DNA of 35,328 bases from Hyphomicrobiales bacterium (GTDB lineage Bacteria > Pseudomonadota > Alphaproteobacteria > Rhizobiales > Xanthobacteraceae): NCBI GenBank assembly GCA_009377695.1, contig WHTP01000061.1, positions 1 to 35,328 of the forward strand, given 5' to 3'. The notes under the pieces are model-generated. The model saw nothing but the letters and a program-made list of their open reading frames with translations. It did no database searches and was not told the DNA's origin. Position 1 is the stretch's first letter. Each line of letters begins with the position of its first letter. Positions 4,905-27,603 of this stretch are shown here, piece by piece. The position numbers were made by a program, and so were the translations under genes.

Positions 4905-5984
4905 ATGTCCGACATCGACACGCTCGAACAGCAAATCCTCTCCGACATCGCGGCGGCAGCCGACGAGGCGGCGCTGGAAGCCGTGCGCATCGCCGCGCTC
5001 GGGCGCAACGGGACCATCACGGCGCTGCTCAAGACGCTCGGCACCATCACGCCGGCCGAACGCCGCGTGCAAGGTCCGCTGATCAATGGACTGAAGGACA
5101 AGGTCACGGCGGCGCTCGCCGCGCGCCGGGACGCTCTCAAAAACTCCGGGCTGGATGCGCGCCTCAACACCGAGATGGTCGACGTCACGCTGCCGGTGCG
5201 CGAGGCACCTACCGAACTGGGCCGCATCCACCCGATCAGCCAGGTGATCGACGAATTGACGGCGATCTTCGCCGATATGGGCTTCGCAGTCGCCGAAGGT
5301 CCCGACATCGAGACCGACGATCTCAACTTCACCAAGCTCAACATCCCCGAGGGTCATCCGGCGCGCGAGATGCACGACACCTTCTTCTTCAATCCGAAGG
5401 CGGACGGTTCGCGCCTCTTGCTGCGTACACACACTTCGCCGGTGCAGATCAGGACGATGCTCGCGCAGAAGCCACCGATCCGCGTGATCATTCCCGGCCG
5501 CACCTATCGCGTCGACTCCGACCAGACCCATACGCCAATGTTCCATCAGGTCGAAGGGCTGGTGATCGACAAGAGCTCCAATCTCGGCCACCTCAAGTGG
5601 ATCCTCGAAGAATTCCTGAAGGCGTTCTTCGAAGTCGAGCAGGTGAAGATGCGCTTCCGTCCGTCGTTCTTCCCGTTCACGGAGCCATCGCTCGAAGTCG
5701 ACATCCAGTGTCGGCGCGAGAAGGGCGAGGTACGCTTCGGCGAGGGCAACGACTGGCTGGAGATTCTCGGCTGCGGGATGGTCCATCCGAACGTGCTGCG
5801 CAATTGCGGGCTCGATCCCGAGGAGTACCAGGGCTTCGCCTGGGGCATGGGGATCGACCGCATCGCGATGCTCAAATACGGGATGCCGGACCTGCGCGCC
5901 TTCTTCGAAGCCGACGTGCGCTGGCTCTCGCACTACGGCTTCCGCCCGCTCGACCTGCCGACGCTGGCGGGGGGATTGAGCTGA
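4905..5984 (+). CDS. pheS: Phenylalanine-tRNA ligase alpha subunit
   Basis: The catalytic subunit of the alpha2-beta2 synthetase that charges tRNA-Phe. Its 359 residues match the family: an N-terminal helical arm (about 1-85), then the class II core. [19 protein letters not shown] and [12 protein letters not shown] are near motif 1. [20 protein letters not shown] is motif 2, [16 protein letters not shown] follows, and [20 protein letters not shown] is motif 3. The ribosome site ahead of ATG 4905 is weak. In most bacteria pheT follows directly; here 578 bases carrying a DUF559 gene separate them. Confidence 0.98.
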
Positions 5985-6032
5985 TGATGATTGCACACGC
6001 CTCGTTGGAATTGAGCTTGGCAGTGCTGCAGG

Positions 6033-6080
6033 CTCGGTCTGTCCCCTCTCCCGCTTGCGGGGGAGGGCTAGGGAGGGGGC
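6033..6080. repeat. Left 48-bp inverted REP-like repeat flanking the DUF559 gene
   Basis: A G/C-rich element beginning CTCGGTCTG and ending in GGGAGGGGGC. It contains an internal hairpin (CTCCCGC-TT-GCGGGGGAG). Aligned by hand to the reverse complement of 6471-6518, 40 of 48 bases match with no gap. It ends 18 bases before the DUF559 ATG. Comparable elements, also as an inverted pair, lie at 26682-26845. Confidence 0.8.
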
Positions 6081-6098
6081 CAGCAAGCGAGGGTGCCT

Positions 6099-6566
6099 AT
6101 GGTTAGCACTCCAAAGCCAACGTGGCAGGTTCCGAGCAAGCAACGCTCACGTGCGCGGTTACTTCGCCGAAATTTAACTGACGCGGAGCGCATCATCTGG
6201 AACGCCGTGCGTGCTCACCGCATGGCTGGTGCGAGCTTCCGACGCCAGACGCCGATTGGACCGCATATCGTCGATTTCGTCTGTCATGACGCCAATCTCG
6301 TGATCGAGGTCGATGGCGGACAACATTTTGAACCCGAGCACATCAGACGCGATTCGCGCCGCGATGCGTTCTTGTCATCGAAGGGCTACCGCGTCCTTCG
6401 TTTCAACAATCACGACGTGATGACAAATCGTCAGGGTGTTTTGGAAACGATCGCTGCTGCCATCGCACATACCCCCTCCCCACCCCTCCCCCGCACGCAG
6501 GGGAGGGAGCAGACCGAGTCCGCCTCGCTGTCCGTGCCACGATCAGCGCACGGAGCGCGCCCATGA
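6099..6566 (+). CDS. DUF559 (Vsr/PD-(D/E)XK-like) nuclease-domain protein
   Basis: About 155 residues from ATG 6099, which has GAGGG at 6088-6093 upstream; an in-frame GTG at 6093 is less likely. The family domain covers about residues 13-123: [48 protein letters not shown] and RFNNHDV. Asp59 and the Glu70-Val-Asp72 pair fit the PD-(D/E)XK nuclease core, as in Vsr and restriction enzymes. The biological role of DUF559 proteins is not established. Residues 125-140 ([16 protein letters not shown]) are encoded by the right inverted repeat, so the C-terminus is built from repeat DNA. The stop overlaps the pheT start (ATGA), so the three genes are probably translated from one mRNA. It looks inserted between pheS and pheT. 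Confidence 0.88.
6471..6518. repeat. Right 48-bp inverted REP-like repeat, inside the DUF559 3' end
   Basis: The reverse complement of this segment matches 6033-6080 at 40 of 48 positions by hand alignment. It runs ACCCCCTCCCC... to ...CAGACCGAG and sits within the coding sequence of the DUF559 gene, 45 bases ahead of the pheT ATG. Together with the left copy it frames the nuclease gene as a unit of about 486 bases. Confidence 0.8.
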
Positions 6567-8977
6567 AATTCACCCTCTCCTGGCTCAAGGAGCACCTCGA
6601 CACCGACGCCTCTGTTGCGGCGATCGCCGACAAACTCACCATGATCGGACTCGAGGTCGAAAGCCTCGCCGACAAGGGTACGCTGCTCGCGCCCTTCACG
6701 ATCGCGCGCGTGATTTCCGCCGAGCAGCACCCCAACGCCGATCGGCTGCGCGTCTGCATGGTGGACACCGGCAGCGGCGATCCGGTGCAGGTCGTGTGCG
6801 GCGCGCCGAATGCGAAGAGCGGCATGATTGGCGTGTTCGTGCCGACCGGCGCTTACATCCCGGGCAAGGACATCACGCTCGGCGTCGGCAAGATCCGCGG
6901 TGTCGAGAGCCACGGCATGCTGGTGTCCGAATTCGAGCTGCAGCTTTCCGAGGACCACGAGGGCATCATCGAATTGCCGGCCGACGCGCCGATCGGCGAA
7001 AACTATGCCAAATGGGCCGGGCTCGACGATCCCGTGATCGAGATCAAGCTCACGCCCAATCGCCCCGACTGCACCGCTGTCTCCGGCGTCGCGCGTGACC
7101 TTGCCGCCGCCGACATGGGCAAGTTCATCGACAAGATGGTCAAGCCGGTTCCGGGCACCGATCCCTGCCCGCGCACGGTGACGCTCGACTTCGGCGCGAC
7201 CCCGTCGCTTTGCCGCGGCTTCGCGCTGCGGCTGGTGCGCGGCGTGAAGAACGGCCCGTCACCCGACTGGCTGCAGAAGCGCCTCACCGCGATCGGCCTG
7301 CGCCCGATCAATGCGCTGGTCGACATCACTAATTTCATCACCTACGACCGCGGCCGCCCACTGCACGTGTTCGACGCCGCCAAGGTGCGCGGCAATCTCG
7401 TGGTGCGGCGCGCCAAGCCCGGCGAGCAACTGCTCGCGCTCGACGGCAAGACTTACGCCCTCGACGACACCATGTGCGTGATCGCCGACGACGCCGGGCC
7501 TGAATCGCTCGCCGGCATCATGGGCGGCGAAGCCTCTGGCTGCGACGAGAACACCACTGACGTGCTGATCGAGTCGGCGCTGTGGGAGCCGCTCAACATT
7601 GCGCGGACCGGGCGCAAGCTCGGCATCAATTCGGACGCGCGTTACCGCTTCGAGCGCGGCGTCGACCCGGCCTTTCTGGTGCCGGGGCTCGAGCTCGCGA
7701 CCAAGATGGTGCTTGATCTCTGCGGCGGCACGCCATCCGAGATCACCATCGCCGGCAATCCGCAGGTGCCGGAACTGGTGATCGATTTCCCGCTCACGGA
7801 ACTAAAGCGCGTCGGAGGCCTCGACGTTCCGTTCCCGGAGGTGCGCGGCGTGCTCAACCGCCTCGGCTTCATGGTTGCCGGGCAAGACAAGACCGTGAAG
7901 ATCGCGACGCCGTCGTGGCGGCCCGACGTGCATGGCAAGGCCGACATCGTCGAGGAGGTCATGCGCATCGTCGGCGTCGACCGCGTGCCGGCGACGCCGT
8001 TCGATCGCGGCCCGAACCCGCGCAAGCCGATCCTCACGCCCTTGCAGGTGCGCACCCGCAAAGCCAAGCGCGCGCTCGCCGCGCGCGGCATGGTCGAAGC
8101 GGTGACGTGGTCGTTCATCTCGAAGATGCAGGCAGAGCTGTTCGGCGGCGGCAAGGGAGAGCTGGCCCTCGCGAATCCGATCGCGTCCGACCTCTCGGAC
8201 ATGCGGCCGAGTCTCCTCCCCGGCCTCATAGGGGGCGCGCAGAAGAACGCCGACCGCGGTTTCCCCGACGTCGCGCTGTTTGAAGTCGGCCAGATTTTCC
8301 GCGGCGACCGGCCGGAGGATCAGTGCATCGCAGCTTCGGGCGTGCGTCGTGCGCTTGCCAAGGCTTCCGGCATCGGGCGCCACTGGCAGGGTAACGGCGA
8401 GGTCGACGCCTTCGACGTGAAGGGCGACGTGCTGGCGCTGCTCGCGGCCGCCGGCGCGCCCTCGCAGGCGCTGCAGGTCGTGCCGGGCGCGCCGGCGTGG
8501 TTTCATCCCGGCCGCTCCGGGACGATCCAGATCGGACCCCAGAATGTGATCGGTTATTTCGGCGAGGTGCATCCGCGCGTGCTTGAGGTGCTCGACGCCG
8601 AGGGCCCGCTGATGGCGTTCGAAGCGATCCTCGAAAAAATCCCGGAGCCGAAGGCCAAGCCTACGCGCGCCAAGCCTGCGCTTGAGCTGTCGCCGTTGCA
8701 GCCGGTGTCGCGCGACTTCGCGTTCATGCTCGATCGTGCCGTGAAGGCCGCTGATCTCGTGCGCGCGGCCCAAAGCGCCGACCGCGCGCTGATCACCGGC
8801 GTCACGGTGTTCGACGTCTACGAAGGCAGAGGCATCGAGCCCGGCAAGAAATCGCTCGCCATCTCCGTGACCATCCAGCCGCGTGAGAAGACCATGACCG
8901 ATGCGGAGATCGACGCCCTCGGCGCGAAGATCGTGGCGGAAGTCACCAAGCGCACGGGCGGGATATTGCGGGCATGA
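6563..8977 (+). CDS. pheT: Phenylalanine-tRNA ligase beta subunit
   Basis: The 804-residue beta subunit of PheRS. It has an N-terminal [12 protein letters not shown] and a tRNA-binding OB domain around residues 40-150 ([23 protein letters not shown]). The B3/B4 editing region lies at about 215-380 ([45 protein letters not shown]) and B5 at about 400-480. A catalytic-like core follows, and a C-terminal FDX-ACB domain ([46 protein letters not shown]). Length and domains are normal. The ATG overlaps the stop of the DUF559 gene as ATGA, implying coupled translation. No terminator is visible in the 73 bases before the convergent transporter gene. Confidence 0.98.
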
Positions 8978-15590: not shown

Positions 15591-16079
15591 GTGGAGGACA
15601 AGACCAAAACCGCATTGATCGCCCTGCGGCAAATCCTTCGGGCGACGGAAATGAGCGGGCGGGCCTTGGCGCAAAAGGCGGGAGTCACGCCGACCCAGCT
15701 CATCATCCTGCAACTGATCAGCAAGTTCACGGAGCGAACTCCCAGCGAGATCGCCAAAGAGGCCGGGATCACGCAGCCGACGGTCACCTCGATCATCGAC
15801 AAGCTGGAGCGCCGGCATCTGATCGTTCGGCGCAAGGGCATCGTCGATAGGCGCAGGGTCTACATCAACATCAGCGAGCAAGGCCACGAGGTGCTCGCCC
15901 GCGGTCCTGACCTGCTTCAGGAGCGCTTCATAAGCCGGTTCAAGGAATTGGCCGACTGGGAGCAATCCAGCCTGATCGCAGCCTTGGAGCGGATCGCAGC
16001 GATGCTCGATGCCACGCACCTCGATGTCGCACCAATTCTGGACGTGGGCGCGATCGACCAGCCATTTTACGAAGGATAG
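15591..16079 (+). CDS. ectR: MarR-family regulator, EctR-like
   Basis: 162 residues from GTG 15591, with AAGGA at 15580-15584. A winged helix-turn-helix covers about residues 30-100: GVTPTQLIILQLI, RTPSEIAKEAGITQPTVTSIIDKLERRHLI and the wing RRKGIVDRRRVYINIS. MarR proteins bind palindromic operators as dimers through such domains. It is divergent from ectABCD with a 315-base shared control region, the arrangement of EctR regulators that repress ect operons in several halotolerant bacteria. The link to ect is therefore by family and position. It may also control the methyltransferase gene 42 bases downstream. Confidence 0.82.
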   Translation: MEDKTKTALIALRQILRATEMSGRALAQKAGVTPTQLIILQLISKFTERTPSEIAKEAGITQPTVTSIIDKLERRHLIVRRKGIVDRRRVYINISEQGHEVLARGPDLLQERFISRFKELADWEQSSLIAALERIAAMLDATHLDVAPILDVGAIDQPFYEG

Positions 16080-26681: not shown

Positions 26682-26845
26682 ATCTCTCCGCTCCCCCCCG
26701 CGAGCGTAGCGAGTGGCGGGGAGCGGTCGGGGGTGGGGCCACTAATTCGCGCCGGATGCTCGTGTTGAAGAAGGTAACCCCCACCCTTCCCCTCCCCACA
26801 TCGCGCGCGAAGGCGCACGCTCTGGGGGAGGGAAACGGAGAGACC
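26682..26845. repeat. Inverted pair of G/C-rich REP-like elements
   Basis: The left member (about 26682-26740) begins ATCTCTCCGCTCCCCC and ends GGTCGGGGGTGGGGCC. The right member (about 26773-26845), read on the other strand, begins GGTCTCTCCGTTTCCC and ends GGGTGGGGGTTACC. They are inverted copies of one type, about 33 bases apart, with no gene between them. The composition and layout are like the copies flanking the DUF559 gene. The element fills most of the dapB-pyrF gap. Confidence 0.7.
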
Positions 26846-27576: not shown

Positions 27577-27603
27577 TCTAGTGTGGCGGTTCAGAAGTCC
27601 GCA
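27577..27603. repeat. Half unit of the CTAG palindromic repeat
   Basis: CTAGTGTGGCGGTTCAGAAG and the following TCCGCAA repeat one arm of the hairpin at 1547-1601. The match to the reverse complement of about 1587-1608 covers some 22 bases. The opposite arm is absent. The unit sits between the pyrF start and the stop of the FMN reductase gene, four bases from that stop. Confidence 0.75.

Follow-up and report, generated by a model that had tools for sequence, protein, structure and literature searches.

In REPtrons (REP/RAYT units), inverted palindromic repeats enclose one small gene, gene-less copies are dispersed elsewhere, and the REP hairpins carry a guide tetranucleotide. Another kind of repeat, named boxC or PIT and abbreviated here as TM (triplex motif), is a hairpin complemented by a third purine strand; a cyanobacterial repeat of similar look exists. 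According to the available text of Holder et al. (2015, PMC4666352), this G/C-rich motif occurs in more than 260 genomes, and E. coli K-12 carries 23 copies, including five inverted pairs, at unstable sites. The isolated E. coli motif strand folds into a triplex in solution, while no stable triplex was seen in vivo. The same available text reports no association of the motif with transposons, phages or plasmids, states that earlier work saw no promoter or terminator activity, contains neither the word DUF nor the word endonuclease and names no enzyme.

Proteins of the DUF559 family (PF04480) have been described in other contexts. The profile of E. coli YcjD detects Vsr (PMC1189080, in the text available). 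The accessible part of PMC12907096 describes the Caulobacter DUF559 protein VsrA as leading to an SOS response upon loss of a cytosine methyltransferase, proposes that it acts in mismatch repair and presents methyltransferase linkage as not obligatory. In the sections available of PMC3943268, the homing endonuclease I-Bth0305I is a long intron protein that comprises several domains, forms dimers and has a target site of nearly 60 bp.

A DUF559 gene bounded by two triplex repeats

The window, i.e., the whole stretch of DNA analysed here (35,328 bases), contains the following features:

4905..5984, + strand: pheS, host gene upstream (ORF and Pfam matches)
6044..6081, + strand: left triplex repeat (TM); strict finder, tail fit 0.91, one stem mismatch; also found by inverted-repeat search
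6093..6566, + strand: ORF of the DUF559 nuclease family, 157 codons (PF04480, E 7.8e-37)
6473..6507, - strand: right triplex repeat (TM), inverted; strict finder, perfect stem, tail fit 1.0; also found by inverted-repeat search
6563..8977, + strand: pheT, host gene downstream (ORF and Pfam matches)
26688..26738, + strand: gene-less pair, left TM, tail inward (strict finder, tail fit 0.89)
26779..26832, - strand: gene-less pair, right TM, tail inward (strict finder, tail fit 1.0)

The initial annotation had placed a DUF559 gene between pheS and pheT, and the three ORFs do follow one another in this order. The frame opens with a GTG at 6093, the ATG at 6099 being a likely start; it matches only PF04480 and PF18741, and the DUF559 domain lies at 6138-6464. 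The left TM stands past the pheS stop and consists of a pyrimidine arm, a loop, a purine arm, the linker CT and a G-rich tail directed into the gene, with a single T.G mismatch in its stem. The right TM, whose tail is also directed into the gene, overlaps the 3' end of the DUF559 frame. Because the ORF runs across this copy, it is translated as the C-terminus and encodes approximately residues 127-142 counted from 6093, in agreement with the earlier view that the right repeat codes for the end of the protein. With 59 nt and 80% complementarity, the flanks 6021-6079 and 6472-6530 are the longest inverted repeat in the window. A hand count of 40 matching bases was reproduced by local alignment of the flank core (match 2, mismatch -3), which gives 40 matches in 47 ungapped columns with a score of 59. 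The 464-nt block 6044-6507 is one unit, a DUF559 gene with a TM at each end.

The strict finder returned exactly 4 TM copies in the window; after block shuffling, 5 windows yielded 0.4 on average. The only TMs besides those of the unit are the pair at 26688-26832, within the region (26682-26845) where gene-less repeats had been announced; both pairs are inverted with tails inward, and here 40 nt separate the copies with no gene inside. No cytosine methyltransferase gene is linked to the DUF559 gene of the window, the neighbours being pheS and pheT by Pfam. Of the four PF04480 matches in this genome, three are stand-alone genes flanked by inverted repeats, and one (L004, a fused protein) is a domain in a 412-codon frame without repeats.

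Like the described boxC/PIT/TM copies, E. coli examples of which lie 3' of ycjD, these repeats are hairpins with a third purine strand and form inverted pairs; unlike them, described as gene-free repeats in the text available of PMC4666352, they bound a DUF559 gene. This link between DUF559 and the repeats is new within the open-licence literature searched. With REP/RAYT units the locus shares a small gene between inverted palindromic repeats and dispersed gene-less copies; it differs by encoding a member of a metal-dependent nuclease family instead of a Y1 tyrosine transposase, and by the triplex mirror code of its repeat. The nuclease travelling with a REP-like element, as initially proposed, stands as a gene-repeat unit, but its repeat is the boxC/PIT/TM triplex motif and not a REP of the RAYT kind.

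The repeats follow a mirror code

In a TM copy, a pyrimidine arm and its complementary purine arm enclose a loop and are followed, after a short linker, by a G-rich tail, which is the mirror image of the purine (3') arm with T often replacing A. This rule was examined on 146 repeats with asymmetric arms (53 distinct arms), drawn from 167 hairpins with an adjacent G-rich tail among 733 unique oriented hairpins, a tail selection that acts alike on the observed set and on the permuted control. The mean fit of tail to mirror was 0.959, with 113 perfect cases, whereas 300 rounds of permuted tails gave 0.841 (sd 0.006, maximum 0.856) and 21.8 perfect cases (maximum 33). Compared repeat by repeat with a direct copy, the mirror was better in 94 cases, worse in 12 and tied in 40. 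A tail copying the 3' arm directly was rejected, its fit of 0.850 (28 perfect) being barely above that of permuted tails (mean 0.829, maximum 0.848). A purine-motif intrastrand triplex follows just such a code, mirror-symmetric with G over GC and A or T over AT; this identifies the repeat as boxC/PIT/TM, and both copies flanking the gene in the window obey the code (fits 0.91 and 1.0). The covariation seen here, together with the in vitro behaviour of the E. coli motif reported in the available text of PMC4666352, shows that the ends can fold as triplex hairpins when single-stranded.

Single stem mismatches in TMs are T.G in 31 of 46 cases, 10 of these at arm position 6. Vsr-type T.G recognition was considered as an explanation and not retained, wobble tolerance accounting equally well for this proportion.

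DUF559 genes and TM repeats are associated across bacteria

PF04480 matches were found in 59 of 61 genomes of the window's family (own genome included), at 0-10 matches per genome. Inverted flanks scoring at least 45 surround 29 of the 33 DUF559 loci read in this family; relatives thus carry the gene with the repeats. When the control was taken from the same stretches, of up to 20 kb each, such flanks were present at 17 of 21 DUF559 loci (20 genes plus the window); the 308 control ORFs all stayed below 35, and no place other than DUF559 reached 45 at the same spacing. A wider scan of named genomes, in which the best 80 of 581 confirmed relatives were kept, covers Pseudomonadota, Nitrospirota, Desulfobacterota, Chloroflexota, Omnitrophota and others, as judged from record titles. 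Here inverted flanks of at least 40 were found in 57 of 79 loci (L134, an artefact caused by a run of N, was removed) versus 4 of 434 control ORFs, and all four of these lie no more than about 460 bp from a DUF559 domain. The pattern was looser in a phylum-wide sample, where only 11 of 28 loci reached a score of 40; in each of 15 others inspected by eye, a repeat or a variant hairpin adjoins the gene.

A TM finder that accepts pyrimidine-only arms was applied to 205 DUF559 domains, of which 133 have an inward TM on both sides and 52 on one side; some TM lies within 220 bp of 192 of them. Among 1132 random placements in the same stretches, one had inward TMs on both sides and 25 had some copy within 220 bp. 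The expectation that the repeats are rarer beside other genes is therefore borne out, and chance as the source of the association is ruled out by the three controls (0/308, 4/434 and 1/1132). The 133 two-sided units span a median of 456 nt (5th and 95th percentiles, 413 and 546), with median gaps of 42 and 17 nt between repeat and coding domain, and in 88 of them the frame extends past the right repeat. The 13 finder negatives include four loci with strong inverted flanks (L031, L090, L181, L196) and two with visible repeats (L192, L193). Repeats also adjoin DUF559 on cyanobacterial and Deinococcus plasmids, and TM tails point outward, not inward, in Deinococcus loci L195, L278 and L284. No repeats were found beside DUF559 in a Bacillota plasmid copy (L283) or a Legionella copy (L173).

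The E. coli DUF559 gene ycjD encodes a protein (NF007294) of the same DUF559 family as Caulobacter VsrA and the unit of the window. It has this repeat type directly 3' of the gene and, unlike the two-sided units, no repeat within 300 bp upstream of the domain. The sapF-ycjD interval of E. coli K-12 (L198) contains a perfect palindrome with arms of about 18 bp, observed in the L192 flank, which is not a TM.

Some loci are organised differently. Long direct similarity joins the two DUF559 flanks in L033, L048, L125 and L191 (scores 249, 115, 284 and 177), which look as though repeat blocks had been duplicated in tandem with the gene, and an A-T-rich version of the repeat stands in tandem 3' of DUF559 in L084 (genome G092).

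Protein type tracks repeat type

Repeats were assigned to classes according to the T pattern of the arm. Both ends of a unit belong to the same class in 50 of 61 cases, whereas shuffling predicts 15.6 (maximum 25 in 1000). Each protein was also compared with its nearest relative from another genus and from non-homologous surroundings, using 69 typed loci of 87 from 34 genomes in one family; loci of mixed or unclear class or with a short domain were omitted, among them the window locus, which is mixed. The repeat class was the same in 56 of the 69, against 15.6 after shuffling (maximum 27 in 300). Because homologous places are excluded, this match is not due to descent at one shared place; it can be explained by movement as a unit or by repeat recognition.

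A candidate specificity residue precedes the F-x-R-Q motif. Within the family, K occupies this position in 28 of 37 TCT-core units and in none of 39 T-core units. In loci from outside the family, which were not used to find the rule, K occurs in 51 of 60 TCT-core versus 7 of 17 T-core units (p=0.0006); 81 of 115 loci could be typed there and 77 entered the two-by-two table. Nearest neighbours outside the family agree in class in 70 of 93 cases (shuffling 51.2, maximum 65 in 2000). A second family rule, H before F-x-R-Q, generalises poorly (0 of 60 versus 2 of 17, p=0.046) and was discarded. Protein type thus tracks repeat type across genera and places, and the class matching together with the residue covariation suggests that a DUF559 protein recognises its own repeat class.

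Presence, absence and change of place

The pheS-pheT junction was read in 30 loci (own genome included), with pheT in reach in 29. Five loci (L054, L059, L065, L071, L072) carry DUF559 with repeats, two carry a gene-less pair (L076, tails outward; L077, tails inward), L055 has a lone hairpin and ten have a gap of at most 27 nt, so that empty junctions do exist in relatives; the remainder hold other spacers. Between relatives, the unit is present or absent as a whole. In a gammaproteobacterial genus, the block that follows a stop codon spans 950, 1015 and 748 nt in L097, L094 and L248, respectively, where four congeners with a left flank 90-91% identical have 106 nt instead. These empty sites (L264-L267) contain no TM in the 106-nt spacers read, and homing into a pre-existing TM accordingly finds no support there. 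The 17 loci compared in this genus occupy only two shared sites, so that inheritance and loss explain them without movement, and loss is as likely as gain at these sites.

Three Deinococcus species have the unit at three different junctions of one hpa cluster. On one plasmid of Synechocystis sp. B12 the unit sits within an anti-phage methyltransferase gene of the DUF1156 type; the two pieces of this gene align to profile positions 1-62 and 437-713 (of 960), each with a score under the curated cut-off. On a second plasmid the unit lies just 5' of a gene annotated pglX (L280/L282 loci). The ORF preceding the latter unit has no family match and ends in the methyltransferase-like motif DPTMGSGAF. 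In E. coli, a 1.25-kb stretch comprising ycjD and repeats is covered to at least 80% in 3333 of 5426 genomes, and one strain without it has an efflux operon there, described in the part available of PMC12817139. No recent strain-level insertion was found among the loci compared and no target-site duplication was seen, the filled and empty sites compared being too diverged for exact junctions. Comparison of the loci nevertheless suggests that the DUF559-TM unit has moved.

TM copy number and DUF559 in genomes

Of 200 genomes of the phylum, 47 have a strong DUF559 match (best E 1.2e-14 or better, list compiled by hand), and 34 of these contain at least 2 TM hairpins of the commonest type, as do 11 of the 153 others (p=2e-18, related genomes not being independent). 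Exceptions exist on both sides: 13 of the 47 have fewer than 2 copies, and 9 of the 153 still hold at least 5. TM-rich genomes without a strong match include G134 (57 hairpins), G219 (107), G240 (105), G278 (32) and G129 (19), two of these assemblies being incomplete; such genomes fit a loss of the gene after the repeats had spread, and also other means of spread. In the gammaproteobacterial genus, the 14 genomes with strong DUF559 have 8-636 TM hairpins and the 11 others 0-262 (p=0.02, with G288, whose gene is degenerate, counted with DUF559 and G295, which has weak matches only, counted without; moving G288 gives p=0.005). The degenerate gene of G288 (L253) has Ala for the conserved Glu, and this genome holds only 8 TM hairpins, none beside the gene.

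A RAYT/Y1 transposase was considered as the source of the repeats. Y1_Tnp matches were found in 10 of 15 genomes checked, and none in TM-rich G142 (203 copies) and G246 (169), which speaks against this source; it is also disfavoured by G240 (105 copies, incomplete genome) and G278 (32), again without a match.

The DUF559 protein is predicted to be a bare nuclease core

Residues invariant over 55 sequences include E32, D61, E72, D74 and H78. The AlphaFold2 model (136 residues, mean pLDDT 89.7) comprises the catalytic core only, and its nearest solved structures are the DUF559 protein 3hrl and the catalytic domain of I-Bth0305I, an EDxHD enzyme (3r3p, TM-score 0.81 by target length), which a sequence profile also finds (E 5e-4); Vsr ranks seventh among the structure matches (E 0.0097). 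Toxin B chains in the profile search (E 0.11 and weaker) were dismissed as chance matches. As modelled, the DUF559 fold is that of the homing endonuclease I-Bth0305I, and fold and conserved residues together make it probable that the protein cuts DNA. Unlike that enzyme, DUF559 units encode a bare catalytic domain between repeats: no DNA-binding region beyond it was seen in the 157-codon ORF, which holds one domain, or in the core-only model.

A proposed dedicated enzyme for TM repeats

We propose, with a probability of about 0.6, that DUF559 is the dedicated enzyme of boxC/PIT/TM repeats and that the unit is a minimal mobile element, or was one until recently. Single-stranded TM DNA, at a replication fork or during repair, would fold into a hairpin held closed by its G-rich tail. 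The DUF559 protein, as a bare nuclease core of the homing-endonuclease/Vsr fold, would recognise its own TM class and cut at or beside it, and repair of the break or fork would then copy the whole block, or the TM pair only, to a new place, e.g., behind a stop codon within an operon. Spread of the unit by such repair or replication after cutting is what copy number, presence and absence, and shifting places point to. Lone TMs and gene-less pairs would be non-autonomous products of the unit; the core of the initial reading, a nuclease that travels with its repeat and gene-less inverted pairs as the non-autonomous form, is supported to this extent. The occurrence of the same gene-repeat package in distantly related bacteria points to the enzyme as the missing partner by which the repeats are spread. 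A broader proposal, to which we would give even odds, is that DUF559-TM units are a new bacteria-wide class of minimal mobile elements of about 0.45 kb, whose ends form triplexes and whose sole protein is a homing-type nuclease, that they are the source of boxC/PIT/TM, and that the nuclease reads the folded triplex hairpin with a specificity that comes partly from the residue before F-x-R-Q.

The main doubt is whether recognition, cutting and spread belong to a selfish element or to a host repair enzyme with an unusual address. In the latter case, DUF559 would be a Vsr-like repair nuclease for mismatches or TM structures, TM sites would break and recombine, and there would be no element. The Vsr-like fold of the model and the long-term stay at two sites in the gammaproteobacterial genus agree with this, as does Caulobacter VsrA, which causes an SOS response upon methyltransferase loss and for which, unlike what is proposed here, mismatch repair has been put forward (PMC12907096, accessible part). 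Host repair alone, however, predicts neither matched repeats on two sides nor the match between protein and repeat class at non-homologous places, and it sits poorly with 0-10 matches per genome inside one family; we regard it as unlikely.

The TM pairs could also be spread by something else and serve as a landing site into which DUF559 genes drop. Gene-less inverted pairs are indeed found in the window, at pheS-pheT of L076 and L077 and in E. coli (PMC4666352, available text), and TM-rich genomes without DUF559 occur. Yet protein type predicts repeat class, the empty sites L264-L267 lack TMs, and the TM-rich genomes G142 and G246 have no Y1 transposase match, which makes such a hot spot improbable. 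A regulatory role of the repeats, as terminators or control elements for the nuclease gene, would agree with their position directly at both ends of the coding domain. This is very improbable, given that control genes lack such repeats, that the frame so often (88/133) passes the right one and that earlier work, as stated in the available text of PMC4666352, saw no promoter or terminator activity.

TM repeats are abundant, sit at unstable sites and form triplexes as single strands, and the papers cited, within their available text, name no enzyme by which they are made, read or spread. If a dedicated nuclease is confirmed, this question would become directly testable in E. coli K-12, which has ycjD, and a new way would emerge for a one-gene element to spread by a nuclease alone. 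The mirror rule and the class matching lead to concrete predictions on how a protein reads DNA structure.

One further repeat of the window, a 26-nt inverted pair (96%) at 1586-1611 and 27578-27603, was observed; its 22-nt core occurs in no other of 284 loci than L034, once, at 15649-15670.
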